Shown: positions 6,431 through 53,055 of the stretch, in pieces
Layout: every line of letters starts with the position of its first letter
How positions within the stretch are numbered: position 1 is the first letter of the stretch
Assembly (NCBI RefSeq): GCF_002744755.1
Contig: NZ_KZ319298.1
Coordinates: 32,525-85,688, forward strand
Direction of reading: 5' to 3'
Source: Leeuwenhoekiella nanhaiensis
GTDB lineage: Bacteria > Bacteroidota > Bacteroidia > Flavobacteriales > Flavobacteriaceae
Length of the DNA: 53,164 nucleotides
The notes under the pieces: generated by a model
What the model saw: the letters and a program-made list of their open reading frames with translations, nothing else
What the model was told of the DNA's origin: nothing
Databases searched by the model: none
Position numbers and translations under genes: made by a program

Positions 6431-6450
6431 ATTTCCGCGAAGGCGGAAAT
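6431..6450. repeat. REP-like palindrome ATTTCCGC-GAAG-GCGGAAAT
   Basis: Perfect 8-bp stem with loop gaag, 10 bases after trpG. The same 20-mer recurs at 10625-10644, with variants at 6506-6525 and 11103-11122. A half copy (gcgaaggcggaaat) lies at 6471-6484. Confidence 0.85.
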
Positions 6451-6505: not shown

Positions 6506-6525
6506 ATTTCCGCGTAGGCGGAAAT
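6506..6525. repeat. REP-like palindrome, variant loop gtag
   Basis: ATTTCCGC/GCGGAAAT stem with loop gtag in the trpG-trpD spacer. It is one of four related palindromes within the trp operon. Confidence 0.85.
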
Positions 6526-7659: not shown

Positions 7660-8442
7660 TTGAACATTTTAGATAAAATAATCGCAGACAAACGAAAGGA
7701 AGTAGCCTTACGTAAGCAATTAATTCCCGTGAGCCAATTAGAACAATCCGTTCTTTTTGATCGCAAATCGCCTTCACTAGCTCAGGCTTTACGAGATAGT
7801 GACACCGGCATCATCGCCGAGCATAAACGCCGTTCACCCAGCAAGCAGGTAATCAATCACAACCTCAACGTACAGGATGTCGCAACCGGTTATGAAAGTG
7901 CCGGTGCCTGCGGTATGAGCGTTCTTACAGACGGTAAATACTTTGGCGGTTCGCTGGACGATTTGCTTTTAGCCCGTGCTTCAAGTAGTTTTCCGCTATT
8001 GCGAAAAGAGTTTATGATTGATGAATATCAAATTCTGGAAGCCAAAGCCTATGGTGCAGACGTTATTTTATTGATCGCTGCGGTGCTTTCGCAAAGCGAA
8101 ATCAAAAGCCTGTCTGAATTCGCAAAAACGCAGGGAATGGATGTCCTGCTGGAGGTGCACAATCTTGAAGAATTGCAAAAATCGATTATGCCTTCCCTCG
8201 ACATGCTGGGGGTCAACAACCGAAACTTAAAAACCTTTGAGGTTAGCCTCGATATCAGTAAAACGCTCTCTGAAGAAATCCCTGACGAATTTGTAAAAGT
8301 CTCCGAAAGCGGAATCAGTACTATTGAAGCAATCAAAGAGTTACGACCTTTTGGCTATCAGGGCTTTTTAATTGGTGAAAACTTTATGAAAACCGATAAT
8401 CCTGGCCGCAGCGCGGAAGCTTTTATCAAAGAACTCAAATAA
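7660..8442 (+). CDS. trpC: Indole-3-glycerol-phosphate synthase
   Basis: A 260-residue (beta-alpha)8 barrel enzyme, with a TTG start codon. TTG is preferred because the reading begins with NILDKIIADKRKEV, the usual family N-terminus, and no ATG is near. Catalytic landmarks are IIAEHKRRSPSK (E54, K56), LLRKEFMIDEYQI, LGVNNRNLKTF and VSESGI. It closes the indole ring from carboxyphenylamino-deoxyribulose phosphate. It stands alone and is not fused to trpF, which follows after an 89-base spacer with a repeat element. Confidence 0.95.
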   Translation: MNILDKIIADKRKEVALRKQLIPVSQLEQSVLFDRKSPSLAQALRDSDTGIIAEHKRRSPSKQVINHNLNVQDVATGYESAGACGMSVLTDGKYFGGSLDDLLLARASSSFPLLRKEFMIDEYQILEAKAYGADVILLIAAVLSQSEIKSLSEFAKTQGMDVLLEVHNLEELQKSIMPSLDMLGVNNRNLKTFEVSLDISKTLSEEIPDEFVKVSESGISTIEAIKELRPFGYQGFLIGENFMKTDNPGRSAEAFIKELK

Positions 8443-8445
8443 AAA

Positions 8446-8502
8446 GCTCCCCTTCTTTCCAAGGAGGGGAACGTTTCAGCTTTGCTGAAACAGGGGTGGT
8501 TC
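8446..8502. repeat. REP-like element between trpC and trpF
   Basis: The stretch reads ctccccttctttccaaggagggg followed by a perfect hairpin GTTTCAGC-TTT-GCTGAAAC (8473-8491) and aggggtggt. It belongs to the same GC-rich family as the elements at 6547 and 8566. Confidence 0.7.
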
Positions 8503-8531
8503 TACTGCCCCCGGATTGGAAATAATCTAAA

Positions 8532-9332
8532 ATGAAAAATAAAGACACACATAAAAAAGAAACTCCCGCTCTCCCGACCACCTTGGGGATGGAGAGGGCT
8601 GGGGTGAGGACGAAAGTCTGTGGGATGAAATACAACACCGCAGCCGTTGCAGCCTTGCAACCCGATTATCTGGGGTTTATTTTTTATGAGAAGAGTCCGC
8701 GCAATTATGATTTAGAAGAAATTCCTTCTTTACCACTCGGAATCAAGAAAGTAGGGGTATTTGTCAACGCCAGTTTGGATTTTGTTCTTGAAAAAGTACA
8801 GCAATTTGGTTTTGACATCCTCCAGTTGCACGGTAACGAGTCACCGGAATATTGTTCAGAACTGCGAAAGCTCAATGCTGAACTTGTTTCAGCATCTTAT
8901 CTTGATAATGAAGCACCCGCACTGAGTGAAATCGAAGTGCCTGCACTGAGCCCAGTGGAACAGCCTGTACCGAGCTCAGTCGAGGTATGGAAAGTGTTTA
9001 GCATAAAAGACGCATTTGATTTTTCAGTCTTAGGAGCCTATGAACCCTATGTAGATGCGTTTTTATTCGATACTAAAGGCAAAGAGAAAGGAGGCAACGG
9101 CTATACCTTTGACTGGGAAGTTTTAAAAGACTATCCCTCTAAAAAACCCTTCGTACTGAGTGGAGGTATTGGTTTGGACGAACTCGACTCCGTCAAAAAT
9201 ATGCTGAAGACTGATTTACCGCTGTTTGCCATTGATGTAAACAGTAAATTTGAAGACCAGCCCGGATTAAAAAATACAAGCGATTTAGAGAAGTTATTGT
9301 GCTTTTTTAGAAATCCTGATAGTGCGAAATAA
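8532..9332 (+). CDS. trpF: Phosphoribosylanthranilate isomerase with repeat-derived segments
   Basis: A TrpF barrel converting phosphoribosylanthranilate to the ribulose form. Conserved parts are KVCGMKY (catalytic cysteine C30 in this numbering), YLGFIFYEKSPR, LQLHGNE, DAFLFDTKGKEKGGNGYTFDW (general acid aspartate), LSGGI and IDVNSKFE. The family usually has 200-215 residues; this frame has 266. Two excesses explain it: about 25 N-terminal residues encoded partly by a GC-rich repeat element (8566-8610), and 24 residues (130-153) encoded by three 24-bp units at 8919-8990. A GTG at 8604, inside the element, is an equally plausible start and would leave 242 residues. Catalytic motifs are intact, so the gene is probably functional. 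Confidence 0.9.
   Translation: MKNKDTHKKETPALPTTLGMERAGVRTKVCGMKYNTAAVAALQPDYLGFIFYEKSPRNYDLEEIPSLPLGIKKVGVFVNASLDFVLEKVQQFGFDILQLHGNESPEYCSELRKLNAELVSASYLDNEAPALSEIEVPALSPVEQPVPSSVEVWKVFSIKDAFDFSVLGAYEPYVDAFLFDTKGKEKGGNGYTFDWEVLKDYPSKKPFVLSGGIGLDELDSVKNMLKTDLPLFAIDVNSKFEDQPGLKNTSDLEKLLCFFRNPDSAK
8566..8610. repeat. GC-rich repeat element forming the trpF N-terminus
   Basis: gctctcccgaccaccttggggatggagagggctggggtgagga resembles the ctccc...gggag...ggcggggggatgagg blocks seen in the tandem repeats at 1-571. The family homology of TrpF begins right after it (KVCG), so the element supplies the start region of the gene. Confidence 0.7.
8919..8990. repeat. Three 24-bp repeats inserted in frame within trpF
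   Basis: Units at 8919-8942, 8943-8966 and 8967-8990 each encode eight residues: ALSEIEVP, ALSPVEQP and VPSSVEVW. The sequence type (gcactgag...gtcgaagtgc) resembles dispersed intergenic repeats of flavobacteria. The first unit starts exactly on a codon boundary. Confidence 0.8.
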
Positions 9333-9357
9333 AAAATAGAAATAAGAATACTAAGAG

Positions 9358-9402
9358 ATTTCCGTCGAAATCTATCCTGAGCGATAGCCGAAGGGCGGAA
9401 AT
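9358..9402. repeat. Nested palindromic element upstream of trpB
   Basis: ATTTCCG at 9358-9364 and CGGAAAT at 9396-9402 form the ends of the 20-bp palindrome family, but the loop is replaced by a second element (ctatcctgagcgatagccgaagg) that is itself partly self-complementary (ctatc/gatag). This looks like one repeat inserted in another. Confidence 0.65.
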
Positions 9403-9420
9403 GAAAATATAGAATAGAAA

Positions 9421-10605
9421 ATGAACTACAACGTAAACGAAAACGGATATTACGGCGATTTTGGAGGAGCATACATCCCCGAGATGCTGTATCCCAATGT
9501 AGAAGAACTGCGCCAGAATTACATCAAGGTCATGCAGGAACCTGAATTTCAGGAGGAATTTCACGAACTGCTGCGCGAGTACGTAGGTCGCCCTACCCCG
9601 CTTTATTTCGCGAAGCGCTTTTCTGAAAAGTACGGGACTAAAGTCTACCTGAAACGCGAAGACCTCTGCCATACCGGGGCGCACAAGGTTAACAATACCA
9701 TCGGGCAGATTTTGATGGCTAAACGTTTAGGCAAAACCCGCATCATCGCAGAGACCGGTGCCGGGCAGCACGGGGTGGCCACTGCTACCGTTTGTGCTTT
9801 GATGGGACTCGAGTGCATCGTCTATATGGGTGCTGTTGATATCAAACGCCAGGCGCCAAACGTTGCCCGTATGAAAATGCTGGGCGCCAAAGTCGTTCCG
9901 GCAGAATCAGGAAGTAAAACCCTGAAGGACGCCACAAACGAGGCCATTCGCGACTGGATCAACAATCCTACCGATACGCACTACATCATAGGTAGCGTCG
10001 TGGGACCACATCCCTATCCCGATATGGTTGCGCGTTTTCAAAGCGTGATTTCCGAAGAGGTTAAAAAACAACTGGTGGAGAAAGAGGGGCGTGAAAATCC
10101 CGATTATGTAGTGGCCTGCGTAGGCGGCGGCAGCAATGCTGCGGGTATTTACTACCACTATCTTGACAATCCGAATGTGGGTATCATCGCGGTTGAAGCT
10201 GCCGGTAAGGGTATTGACAGCGGCGAGAGCGCAGCCACCTCAGCACTGGGCAAAGAAGGTATCATTCACGGCAGTAAAACCCTGCTTATGCAAACGCCAG
10301 ACGGTCAGATCACCGAGCCCTATTCCATTTCAGCCGGTTTGGATTATCCCGGAGTTGGACCTATGCACGCGCACCTGTTTCGCAGCGGACGTGGCGAATT
10401 CATCAGCATAACCGATGATGCTGCTATGCAGGCCGGTCTGGAACTCAGCAAACTCGAAGGCATCATCCCGGCGATTGAAACCTCACACGCCTTAGCCATT
10501 TTCAAAGACCGAAAATTTAAAAAAGACGATGTGGTAGTGATTAATTTAAGCGGTAGAGGGGACAAGGATTTGAATACATACATAGAATATTTCAACCTTG
10601 CCTAG
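9421..10605 (+). CDS. trpB: Tryptophan synthase beta chain
   Basis: A 394-residue PLP enzyme that joins indole and serine to form tryptophan. The PLP lysine is in [13 protein letters not shown] (K89), the phosphate loop is [11 protein letters not shown], and [26 protein letters not shown] and SGRGDKD are all present. Length is normal for TrpB1. It is separated from trpA by a GIY-YIG gene and repeats, unusual because the two subunits form one complex and are often adjacent. Its stop codon lies inside a hairpin followed by six T residues. Confidence 0.97.
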
Positions 10606-10624: not shown

Positions 10625-10644
10625 ATTTCCGCGAAGGCGGAAAT
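10625..10644. repeat. REP-like palindrome, left flank of the GIY-YIG gene
   Basis: Identical in all 20 bases to the element at 6431-6450. Confidence 0.85.
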
Positions 10645-10669: not shown

Positions 10670-10960
10670 ATGGAAGAATTGTTTTACACCTATATTCTTA
10701 CCAATAAAAACCACACCGTTCTTTACATTGGGGTAACCGCAGATTTGAAAAAACGCTTAAGACAACATACACAAAAAAGTAATAAAGGATTTACGGGAAA
10801 ATACAATGTAGAAAAACTGGTCTATTTTGAATCAACGCCCTATGTGAATAATGCGATACACAGGGAGAAGCAACTCAAAAAATGGAATCGGGAATGGAAA
10901 GAAAATCTAATAAGCGACATGAATCCGGATTGGAATGATTTGAGTTGGATGCTTGAGTGA
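10670..10960 (+). CDS. GIY-YIG domain protein inside the trp operon
   Basis: A 96-residue single-domain protein with the GIY-YIG signature spread over YTYILTN...YIGVTADLKKRLRQH, followed by AIHREKQLKKW, as in the UPF0213/YhbQ-like group. Such domains cut DNA in homing and repair enzymes; small stand-alone members in Bacteroidota mostly lack a known role. It lies between trpB and trpA, has no evident link to tryptophan synthesis, and is flanked by related palindromes at 10625-10644 and 11103-11122. This suggests a cassette that inserted in the operon. Confidence 0.88.
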   Translation: MEELFYTYILTNKNHTVLYIGVTADLKKRLRQHTQKSNKGFTGKYNVEKLVYFESTPYVNNAIHREKQLKKWNREWKENLISDMNPDWNDLSWMLE

Positions 10961-10999
10961 AAATATTCCGGATTAAATAAAGGGTTTTAAATAAAAATA

Positions 11000-11111
11000 A
11001 CGATACGATTGAAGAGGTTTCCGCAGGAACTAAGCTAAAATAAGGATACGATTGAAGAGATTTCCGCAGGAACCAAACTAAAACAAGGATACGATTGAAG
11101 AGATTTCCGTC
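11000..11111 (+). repeat. Three tandem 43-bp repeats upstream of trpA
   Basis: The marker gatacgattgaagag occurs at 11002, 11045 and 11088, an exact 43-bp period. Each unit contains a half palindrome (tttccg, twice as tttccgcaggaac). The last unit runs into the complete palindrome at 11103-11122. Confidence 0.85.
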
Positions 11112-11122
11112 TTCACGGAAAT
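11103..11122. repeat. REP-like palindrome, right flank of the GIY-YIG gene
   Basis: ATTTCCGT-CTTC-ACGGAAAT. Its loop cttc is the reverse complement of the gaag loop in the left copy, so the two copies are in inverted orientation. The first in-frame ATG of the trpA frame (11121) overlaps its end. Confidence 0.8.
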
Positions 11123-49428: not shown

Positions 49429-52400
49429 TTAATTAATGTATAAGAATGAAGCTAATCGACGTATTTCTCCATTATCGCGCTCGTACTCGATAACATAGTA
49501 ATAAGTACCTGTAGGTAATCGTTCTCCTCTTCGCACTGTTGCGCGACCGTCAGAGAATCCTCTAAAGACATTATCACTCATTGGATTGTATCCTGTAGTA
49601 CTGAATACTTCAACACCCCATCGGTTAAATATTTGAACCTTGTTATTAGGGAAGTTCTCAATATTCTGAATCATAAAGATATCATTCAATCCATCACCAT
49701 TTGGAGTCATCACATTGTAGACGATTATATCTTCTACATTTTCGACACCTTGTAGTGGTGTAAACGTCGCATCATCAGGCTCACCATCTCCATCCAGATC
49801 CTCATCTGTTGTATTGTTTGGATCATCTGAAAGATCTTCAATCACTTCACCATTAGATAATACTCCACTAGCAATAGCCTGGTTAGTTACACCTGCTGAT
49901 TCAATATCTTCCTGAGTGATCGTGTAGATTGCACTGAAGGTTGAAGAATCAACTGCGCCTGGAGCAAGGTCTATTGGTCCACCTGTAACAGGAACTAATG
50001 GATCGTCAATTACAATATCAAATATTGCTGTCTCACCCGTATTGTATACCGTAAACGTATAGGTAATCGTTTCACCTTCGTCTGGAATACCATCACCATC
50101 TTCGTCATTAAACACTCCTACTTTCTCAACACTCATTCCTGTAACTCCAGGAGTAACTGTTACGGTAGGATCATTACCCGGATCACCGTCACCATCGTCA
50201 TCAGCAAGTTCGTCTCCGTTATCTGAAACATCGGTAACTTCTTCTCCAAACTGATCTGTACCTGTAGCAATTGCCGTGTTCGTTACAAAACCTGCCTCAA
50301 TATCTTCCTGAGTGATCGTGTAAACTGCCGTCACCACACCGCTTTCACCGGCAGCTAATGTTTCGGGAACTAAAGCAAGTCCGGAAATATCAAGTCTATC
50401 ATCTTCAATTACAATATCACTTACACTGGTATTACCCGTATTGGTTACCGTGAAGGTATAGGTAATGGTTTCTCCAACCTGTGCAAAAGCATCCTGATTT
50501 TCATCATTCAACACTGCAGTTTTCACAAATTGAAGTTGTGACACCGGTGATTCTTCGATAACAATGTACACCGTTGCAACATCTGTTGCCACAGGCGAAC
50601 CTGCATCAAATATCTGATACGTGAATTGATCTGTACCTGTAAAGCCGTCATTTGGCGTATAGGTAAATGTACCATCACTATTAATGACTACAGTACCATT
50701 AGCTGGACCCACTATTGGAGATACTGAAGTATCAACCGTCTGAGTTTGGCCTTCAGGGTCTGAATCATTGTCCAATACATTACCGCTAACAGGTGAATTT
50801 AATTCTCCGTAATAAGCATCATCATTTGCAACGGTAGTGTTTCCTGTATCAGCAATAACTTCGATGGTAACAGTACCTGTTGCACAAGCCTGTGGATCTC
50901 CGTTATCACAAACAGTATACTCAAAACTATCCTGACCTGAATAACCTGGATCTGGAGTATAGGTATACGTACCATCAGGATTTATTACAACCGTTCCATG
51001 TTCAGGATCAGTATTACCAGTTACCGTGATCGGATCTCCGTCAGGATCAAAGTCATTGCTCAATACATTGCCTTCAATAGGAACACCTACTTCTGTGATA
51101 TTGGTATCATCATTCGCAACCGGAGGATCATTCGTCGTAGTTGGGAATGGAATCACCTGAATCACTACATCTGCCTGATCGCAAGCTCGTGGGCTACCAC
51201 CGTCACACACTTCATAGGTGAAGCTGTCCTGACCGATAAAGCCGTCGTTTGGTGTATAGGTATACGTTCCATCTTCATTGAACACTAAAGTACCGTTGGC
51301 TGGCTGAGTCACTACCGTGTAAACCTCACTGCCCGCAGGACCGTCTGGGTTCTCATCGTTAGTGCCTACATCGCCACTTACAGCCTGACCTTCAAAGGTA
51401 TCGTTGATGTCATTGATCGCTAAGATATCATTACCACCGTTCTCACTTGGATCGATGCTGATGTATACCGTTGCAGTATCAGTAGCGCCCTGTGCATCTG
51501 TGATGGTATAGGTGAACTGGTCTGCTCCGCTATAACCCATCTCAGGGGTATAGGTGAAGCTACCGTCTGTTCCTATTTCTACTGTTCCGTGTGCAGGTGC
51601 TGTGTTACCAGTTACAGTAAAGCTGTCGCCCTCAGGATCGCTGTCGTTATCCGTTACATTACCGGTGATCTCGTCTCCGATAAAGCCGAAGTACGCATCA
51701 TCATTGGCCACTACTATATTAGCAGTATCTGCAACTACCTCGATCGTTACTTTTCCTTCCGAACAAAGTGCAGGGTTACCACTGTCACATACCGTATAGG
51801 TGAAGCTGTCCTCGCCTACAAAACCAGGCTCTGGAGTATAGGTAAAGCTGCCGTCAGGGTTAACCACTACACTACCATTGGTTGGTTGTGTATTACCGGT
51901 TACCGTGATCGTATCACCATCAGGATCAAAGTCATTGCTCAGTACATTACCGTCTACAGGTATACCTGCTTCAGTAATCGCTGTGTCGTCATTAGCTACA
52001 GGGGCTGCATTCTCAGGACCACCAACCGGCAATACCTGAATCACTACATCGGCCTGATCGCAAGCTCGTGGGCTACCACCGTCACACACTTCATAGGTGA
52101 AGCTGTCCTGACCGATAAAGCCGTCGTTTGGTGTATATGTGTACGTTCCGTCTTCATTGAAGACCAAAGTACCGTTGGCTGGCTGAGTCACTACCGTGTA
52201 AACCTCACTGCCCGCAGGACCGTCCGGGTTCTCATCGTTAGTGCCTACATCGCCACTTACAGCCTGACCTTCAAACGTATCGTTGATGTCATTGATCGCT
52301 AAGATATCATTACCACCGTTCTCACTTGGATCGATGCTGATGTATACCGTAGCGGTATCAGTAGCGCCCTGTGCATCTGTGATGGTATAGGTGAACTGGT

Positions 52401-53055
52401 CTGCTCCGCTATAACCCATCTCAGGGGTATAGGTGAAGCTGCCGTCTGTTCCTATTTCTACTGTTCCGTGTGCAGGAGCAGTGTTGCCCGTCACTGTAAA
52501 GCTATCCCCCTCAGGATCGCTGTCGTTATCCGTTACATTACCGGTGATCTCGTCTCCGATAAAGCCGAAGTACGCATCATCATTGGCCACTACTATATTA
52601 GCAGTATCTGCAACTACCTCGATCGTTACTTTTCCTTCGGAACAAAGTGCAGGGTTACCACTGTCACATACCGTATACGTGAAGCTGTCCTCACCTACAA
52701 AACCAGGCTCTGGAGTATAGGTAAAGCTACCGTCAGGGTTAACCACTACACTACCATTAGTTGGTTGTGTATTACCGGTTACCGTGATCGTATCACCATC
52801 AGGATCAAAGTCATTGCTCAGTACATTACCGTCTACAGGTATACCTGCTTCAGTAATCGCTGTGTCGTCATTAGCTACAGGGGCTGCATTCTCAGGACCA
52901 CCAACCGGCAATACCTGAATCACTACATCGGCCTGATCGCAAGCTCGTGGGCTACCACCGTCACACACTTCATAGGTGAAGCTGTCCTGACCGATAAAGC
53001 CGTCGTTTGGTGTATAGGTGTACGTTCCGTCTTCATTGAAATTGTTCCAGTGGCT
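49429..53055 (-). CDS. Giant Ig-like repeat adhesin with T9SS sorting domain, 5' part disrupted
   Basis: The C-terminal part (about 1,200 codons) of a surface protein; no valid start is visible. From N to C: tandem Big_9/tandem-95-type beta-sandwich domains (pattern [11 protein letters not shown]...[11 protein letters not shown]...[23 protein letters not shown]), in which a 293-residue block of three domains is repeated twice almost exactly at DNA level, then a third diverged set, two DUF11-like domains ([19 protein letters not shown]) and a C-terminal T9SS type B/gliding domain ([48 protein letters not shown]). The protein should be secreted by T9SS and held at the surface, with the downstream PorP/SprF protein as partner. 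The frame is closed by a TGA at 53056-53058, upstream of an abrupt sequence change at 53040/53041. Confidence 0.88.
51183..52940. repeat. Two tandem 879-bp coding repeats
   Basis: The marker aagctcgtgg lies at 51183, 52062 and 52941, an exact 879-bp (293-codon) period. Two full copies and 100 bases of a third are present before the break at 53040. By eye the two copies differ at about 20-25 positions, all apparently silent. Confidence 0.92.

Follow-up and report, generated by a model that had tools for sequence, protein, structure and literature searches.

Probable recurrent in-frame capture of REP-like DNA in the alpha4-beta5 loop of TrpF in Leeuwenhoekiella nanhaiensis and other flavobacteria

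Intragenic REPs have been published for several species (PMC3733652, Di Nocera et al. 2013). The same paper identifies RPE-4 and RPE-6 of Rickettsia as CGTC REPs and reports different REPs at about the same recB site in two Xanthomonas species (PMC3733652). CGTC REPs have an unpaired tag (CGTC, TGTC or CCTC) at one end, a stem of 8-9 bp opening with A-T and T-A pairs, a loop of 4-5 nt, an unpaired tail that fits CCA, and a high, mainly intergenic copy number. The sections of the paper on these REPs report no single loop shared among different repeat families, and its main text contains 'flavobacteri' 0 times and 'Bacteroidetes' once. Rickettsia palindromic elements (RPEs) of approximately 150 bp are described as lying in frame in unrelated genes, with the protein presumably still functional (PMC10969869). 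Here we describe a composite insert, containing two repeat elements referred to as A and B, in the trpF gene of Leeuwenhoekiella nanhaiensis. The gene lies in a 53,164-nucleotide stretch of DNA, the whole of which is called the window herein. We consider it probable (about 0.8) that the insert reflects recurrent in-frame capture of REP-like intergenic DNA at a tolerant surface loop.

The trpF gene of the window and its repeat elements

The features of the window that bear on the insert are as follows.

8532-9332, plus strand: trpF, encoding phosphoribosylanthranilate isomerase, 266 aa (ORF call, Pfam, AF2 fold)
8591-8609, plus strand: candidate element F, GGAGAGGGCTGGGGTGAGG, identical to a portion of the TrpF loop at locus L074
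8871-8898, plus strand: element A hairpin (fold z -4.18; core CTGAACTTGTTTCAG; AF2 helix 105-124)
8910-8987, plus strand: element B array of about 3.2 degenerate 24-bp units (period-24 score; simulations)
8979-9002, plus strand: strand beta5 region, VEVWKVFS (AF2 strand 151-158; junction codons in 137 TrpF genes)
Insert-encoded peptide: includes AELVSASYLDNEAPALSEIEVP

The product of the ORF at 8532-9332 matches PRAI (PF00697) with an E-value of 3.4e-30 in Pfam, is the sole trpF match found in its own genome (G000), and has Leeuwenhoekiella species as its closest named relatives by TrpF. An AF2 model, for which 50 of the 81 listed sequences served as alignment input, adopts a TrpF barrel (pLDDT 87.5), and the 12 closest solved folds are all TrpF or TrpC-TrpF. 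C30 and D180 are invariant across 50 rows, and we take them to be the catalytic Cys and Asp by analogy with T. maritima TrpF. The PRAI domain, the TIM barrel and these two residues place the protein among the TrpF enzymes. The two halves of the core gave dN/dS values of 0.26 and 0.075 against L. parthenopeia, synonymous sites in the other pairs being at or near saturation, and the barrel core is kept under purifying selection. In the model, helix alpha4 spans residues 105-124 and element A lies inside its extension. Residues 125-150 form a coil of reduced confidence between helix and strand (pLDDT 76, 69 and 65 for the blocks of residues 121-150), and strand beta5 follows at residues 151-158, where the end of element B, GTC-GAG-GTA, fuses with the first beta5 codons.

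A preliminary description of this DNA had likened the insert to the palindromic elements of Rickettsia. This likeness is apt for element A, RPE-4 and RPE-6 being counted among the CGTC REPs, and a palindromic element does exist at 8871-8898; it adjoins the 24-mer, however, and had been overlooked, whereas the 24-mer itself is not palindromic by folding (z -1.22, -0.16 and 0.13 for the three window units). The stem of element A comprises 8 bp (8875-8882 / 8888-8895, ATGCTGAA/TTCAGCAT) around a loop of 5 nt and opens with A-T and T-A pairs, as in the stem and loop of CGTC REPs, and some copies elsewhere have other outer pairs (cc..gg). Several copies read cgtc-a-stem-CTTGT-stem-tctca, with the outer stem pairs changing on both sides. 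At the tag position the window has CTCA, while the TrpF of relative G002 and several other copies have CGTC; the tail, TCTT in the window and TCTCA or TCACA in several copies, is not CCA. The element encodes LNAELVSAS, modelled as the extension of helix alpha4. Its core CTGAACTTGTTTCAG was found in 11 of 13 genus genomes, at 3-10 exact cores each and with 0 control matches, and of the 45 sites found, 29 were fetched and located, 22 of these in open frames shorter than 150 aa (58 of 60 fetched sites were located in the repeat-context survey as a whole). Element A also occurs in frame, as HPELVSGSH, within HsdS in the window's own genome (L145) and HsdM in G002 (L128), both of which are type I restriction-modification proteins.

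The repeat first noted at this locus was a triple 24-bp repeat at 8919-8990 encoding ALSEIEVP, ALSPVEQP and VPSSVEVW. The repeat is real and in frame and its units encode the peptides as given, but it is degenerate, with pairwise identities of 17, 13 and 13 of 24 among the three 24-mers, and has a better register from 8910. The period-24 triple score tops the window at 48 at 8910 and 43 at 8919, the best unrelated place scoring 40; simulating the window 200 times with a first-order Markov model, for period 24 only, gave a maximum of 42, and 0/200 reached the array. The array is absent from the Tandem Repeats Finder output at score 50 and is therefore degenerate; nor was it among the 20 listed of at least 60 families in a general repeat search, and an Rfam search of 8400-9450 returned no match up to E 1. 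In the best register, units start at 8910, 8934 and 8958, followed by the partial copy GAGGTA, and encode EAPALSEI, EVPALSPV and EQPVPSSV, then EV entering beta5. The third unit was thus not wholly inserted as had been proposed: VEVW is native strand (AF2 151-158), and VEVWK is present also in array-less TrpF genes such as that at locus L109. Likewise, the insert is larger than the 24 residues originally assigned to it, with 36 residues between conserved anchors versus 3 in L. blandensis; in all it is a composite of approximately 108 bp, with units of 24-28 bp. The window's B units have 4, 3 and 8 mismatches to a hand-written 24-mer. Folding of two B consensus forms gave z 0.48 and 0.51, and neither forms the stem-loop of a REP.

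The 19-nucleotide stretch GGAGAGGGCTGGGGTGAGG at 8591-8609 encodes MERAGVR at the TrpF N-terminus, directly ahead of the KVCGM motif, and may be a further repeat (F). The F consensus had 2 matches in the non-TrpF pool with 0 in the control, and 1 match versus 1 control match in own-genome stretches.

Other repetitive features were observed in the window. A small GIY-YIG ORF at 10670-10957, between trpB and trpA, is flanked (10625-10644, 10994-11122) by the palindrome ATTTCCGCGAAGGCGGAAAT upstream and by a 43-bp tandem array and a related inverted repeat downstream; similar GIY-YIG ORFs adjoin element A in L124, L132 and L136 and occur in 5 of 13 BioF loci. A palindrome family, ATTTCCGC..GCGGAAAT, occupies four places in the trp operon (6431-6450, 6506-6525, 10625-10644 and 11103-11122); arbitrary stretches of the own genome, 220 kb in all, contain 0 matches to it when up to 3 mismatches are allowed. 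Three tandem copies of 189 bp lie at 13-579, the second and third sharing 96% and 87% identity with the first, and direct repeats spaced by approximately 290-300 and 580 nt at 50599-53040 probably belong to a repetitive protein.

Dispersed repeat families

A and B belong to two dispersed repeat families. A genome search for the 24-mer, proposed in the preliminary description, showed that its core is dispersed: the window's own genome contains 19 exact copies of CTGAGCN{2,3}GTCGAAG, against 0 in controls, the window's degenerate B units not being among the 19, and 16 of these copies lie outside open frames of at least 150 aa and three within them. The B core was present in 60 of 66 genomes searched, at up to 78 copies, with 3 control matches altogether. 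Coding context was assessed through open frames of at least 150 aa rather than annotation; by this measure 6 of 17 C copies are in such frames, of which those in BioF and GDP-L-fucose synthase were judged clear. Repeat copies in the window's own genome include that in GDP-L-fucose synthase and one in a CusA/CzcA-type efflux protein. The core GAGCGCAGTCGA is common to B and C, and C is probably a variant of the same family as B. Palindrome D, at up to 2 mismatches, was found in 6 of 14 genomes searched with 0 in controls, including all 3 genomes that have D in the TrpF loop (11, 8 and 4 places, the TrpF copy counted), and its copies show paired stem changes. Elements A to E were also found in the non-TrpF pool at 8 to 26 sites against 0 or 1 for reversed controls, and F and F2 had 2 and 0 matches only. 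The loop elements encode the following peptides.

A: HAELVSAS
B: PALSAVEV, NTEPVEW, VPRTEPVEV
C: QIERSRD
D: NRPDRFSKPVRSG
E: IPACAGMT
F: SGEGWGE

The alpha4-beta5 loop among relatives

At 151 loci holding 137 distinct TrpF genes, the alpha4-beta5 loop ranges from 0 to 74 residues in length, and in 137/137 genes it is in frame with no stop inside. When recognised by consensus elements at up to 20% mismatch, repeats were present in 39 of the 137 loops versus 7 of 2,740 control windows, matched in length and drawn from the conserved regions of these genes (Fisher p 4e-47, the windows not being independent). Six consensus elements were written after particular loops; with these template loops removed, 30 of 128 loops keep a recognised element. 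In a set chosen by kinship, comprising 70 distinct genes from 69 of the 73 TrpF-matching genomes (G075, G076, G093 and G095 left out), 13 of 70 loops contained an element, and in the genus the count was 9 of 13. Among the 31 loops of at least 16 residues, 22 have a recognised element and 9 match no consensus. A 16-mer pool test also supports a hotspot: 246 of 4,455 loop k-mers were matched, compared with 147 of 36,750 from the N-core and 185 of 43,878 from the C-core, the reversed controls giving 3, 113 and 115, respectively, and 18 of the 31 loops of at least 16 residues lacked any pool 16-mer. We rank the consensus-element test above the 16-mer test because the 16-mer pool held motif-fetched loci, and the flanking regions are uninterpretable in the latter because the neighbouring genes are homologous.

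Alignment of TrpF with relatives, as had been suggested, showed that the insert DNA is missing or different in related genes. Neither outcome set beforehand as counting against an insertion, namely conservation in the TrpF of distant relatives or a lack of copies elsewhere, appeared. What did not hold is the view of the case as a single insertion, as the window is one state of a hotspot common to many flavobacteria. On a conserved-core tree of 121 rows (16 of the 137, L215-L230, left out), with element labels assigned by hand, there were at least 31 changes of loop state, gain and loss not being separable, and 24 changes between present and absent. Merging B and C and disregarding strand left at least 30 state changes, and setting F aside as well left 29. 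In this quick tree, 52 of 118 inner branches are open. Dokdonia alone shows loop states A, B, C, F and none. Two sister rows (SH-aLRT 100) differ in that L. palythoae has C in a loop of 18 residues and L. blandensis has no element in a loop of 3. L. parthenopeia, the sister row of the window, has 91% identity to it in the cores, yet the first loop element is A in the window versus C in L. parthenopeia, and the lengths are 36 versus 74. In L. parthenopeia a 24-nt B is nested in C, which is uninterrupted in L. aequorea and L. marinoflava. Different repeats thus occupy the TrpF loop in different species. No target-site duplications were discernible by eye in empty/filled pairs of TrpF, BioF and HisA.

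In 17 loops ending in B or C, the junction codons read by eye are GTC/ATC, then GAA/GAG, then GTx/ATx, so that the end of B or C encodes the first beta5 residues, loops having been classed partly by the same motif. The distances between B ends within TrpF loops are 21 (2), 24 (6), 39, 48 (2), 63, 83 and 118, of which 83 and 118 are not multiples of three, and five close B pairs outside TrpF are spaced 29, 31 or 32.

Two further enzymes of the genus share this pattern. One loop of BioF (8-amino-7-oxononanoate synthase; L121, L160, L261-L273) contains repeat elements in 11 of 13 Leeuwenhoekiella genomes: by eye, 3 genomes have A in the opposite orientation, 7 have C (accompanied in 3 of them by extra B copies), 1 has a B-like copy and 2 have none. 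Further variable stretches occur elsewhere in the BioF protein. In HisA (L303-L315; 2 of the 13, G007 and G012, were unfit for the pattern and uncounted), B- or C-type elements, also assigned by eye, lie between ILEE and the strand preceding ASGG in 7 of 11 readable loops, and the remaining 4 are of a short form, for example ILEETENLKLI. To judge from the sequences, the BioF and HisA sites would be helix-to-strand turns.

Origin of the insert and comparison with known systems

We propose that A, a hairpin resembling CGTC REPs, and B, a repeat of GTCGAAG type, entered the trpF alpha4-beta5 loop from their dispersed families, and that B afterwards expanded into a tandem array of 24-bp units. Under this explanation, repeat DNA would enter coding genes at many places and be purged where the protein is broken, surviving in barrel loops opposite the active site where frame and length permit. 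Array growth would proceed by slippage in frame-keeping steps, and gain, nested insertion, array growth and replacement together would give a fast-changing loop without a known host function. The alpha-beta loops of TIM barrels face away from the active site. As the loop probably lies on this side of the barrel, cells would tolerate an open-frame element of the right length, and we infer that such tolerance is the reason for the use of the alpha4-beta5 loop. The B end GTC-GAA-GT(x) encodes V-E-V, fitting the [VI]-E-[VI] that beta5 needs; this fit either aids recombination of B at beta5 or marks the sole register kept by selection.

Local slippage could instead have made the 24-bp repeat as a home-grown minisatellite, its likeness to dispersed repeats being coincidental. 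Most B spacings in TrpF loops are indeed 24 or 21 (8/14), and unit number varies between species as slippage predicts. The core of the unit, however, recurs as a dispersed repeat across 60 of 66 genomes, other loops hold single copies or other elements, and in L. parthenopeia the 24-nt element lies inside C. Slippage as the origin of the unit is therefore largely refuted, and we regard a minisatellite as very unlikely, although slippage is likely to account for growth of the array. Least probable, in our judgement, is that selection acts on the loop peptides for a function, such as a binding tail or an enzyme-enzyme contact, for which the repeats are mere raw material. Recognised elements in 9 of 13 Leeuwenhoekiella genomes and the one common frame of forward A copies in TrpF loops, xAELVSAS or xELVSGS, would fit such selection, but the other 4 genomes have no recognised element in the TrpF loop, A also occurs reversed and in another frame (L082, L009), and sequence, length and even presence differ between sister rows; the coil predicted with reduced confidence also points away from a function.

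A third possibility, which we consider unlikely, is that the mobilising machinery picks the site, which would then be more than tolerated, by way of TGTCA tags, the microhomology GTCGAAGT or a nuclease, for which the GIY-YIG protein encoded nearby is a candidate. The meeting of element and gene at (G/A)TC-GA(A/G)-(G/A)T of beta5 in the 17 B/C-ending loops (by eye) is consistent with targeting, except that this class of loop is recognised partly by the junction motif itself, and A and D are unlike the beta5 codons. GIY-YIG ORFs occur in 24 of 150 TrpF, 10 of 32 element-A and 6 of 37 BioF/HisA/Y1 loci, compared with 0 in the own-genome stretches, whether arbitrary (220 kb) or hit-chosen (180 kb), and an element is present in 10 of 20 TrpF genes with a GIY-YIG neighbour versus 29 of 117 without (Fisher p 0.03). 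Against this, the GIY-YIG-bearing A loci are largely one repeated neighbourhood near bioF, flank lengths differ among loci, and there was no GIY-YIG at B, C or D loci (0 of 49, 17 and 10, respectively). As a mobiliser, GIY-YIG therefore shows a weak association only. A broader form of the same idea, no more likely, is that the alpha-beta loops of TrpF, HisA and BioF in Flavobacteriaceae are site-preferred exchange points at which swaps via TGTCA tags or GTCGAAGT microhomology, possibly helped by small GIY-YIG nucleases whose genes adjoin the trp operon and bioF alike, keep re-coding the loops with new peptides. RAYT was also considered as mobiliser and rejected: Y1_Tnp genes are present (7 of 13 genus genomes have a match, 6 above the cut-off), but no A, B or C motif lay within 1.5 kb at the 9 scanned of 11 genus Y1 transposase loci.

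Recurrent capture at a tolerant loop would make this locus a natural replicated experiment in which non-coding repeats become protein. One enzyme loop is filled by different repeats in dozens of species, sister rows exist in both the empty and the filled state, and the pattern recurs in two more enzymes of the genus. It becomes testable which elements, frames and structural positions proteins accept, and whether the inserts are neutral or useful.

In-frame REP insertion is already known, and we have found no description of a bacterial family in which one loop is used again and again; the titles and abstract openings of the open-access literature gave no account of repeat capture in TrpF, HisA or BioF loops. 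Compared with CGTC REPs as presented in the relevant sections of PMC3733652, element A has the same 8-bp stem with A-T and T-A first pairs, the 5-nt loop and, in several copies, a CGTC-like tag; it too lies mostly outside long frames with in-frame copies inside ORFs, and TrpF loops L082 and L086 contain inverted element pairs, as found in CGTC REPs. It differs in the unconserved tag of the window, in having 3-10 exact cores per genome and in a tail that is not CCA. With the RAYT-mobilised GTAG REPs and REPINs, as outlined in PMC6006769, the elements share short dispersed hairpins and inverted pairs, whereas no GTAG tag was seen by eye beside A copies and no cognate Y1 gene flanked by the repeats was found in the scanned genus loci. 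Like the RPEs described in PMC10969869, the TrpF insert is an in-frame insertion into a gene. The approximately 150-bp unit and conserved peptide of those elements are absent from it; unlike them, its units are 20-30 bp and of several families, its hosts are free-living marine bacteria, and one loop is reused.
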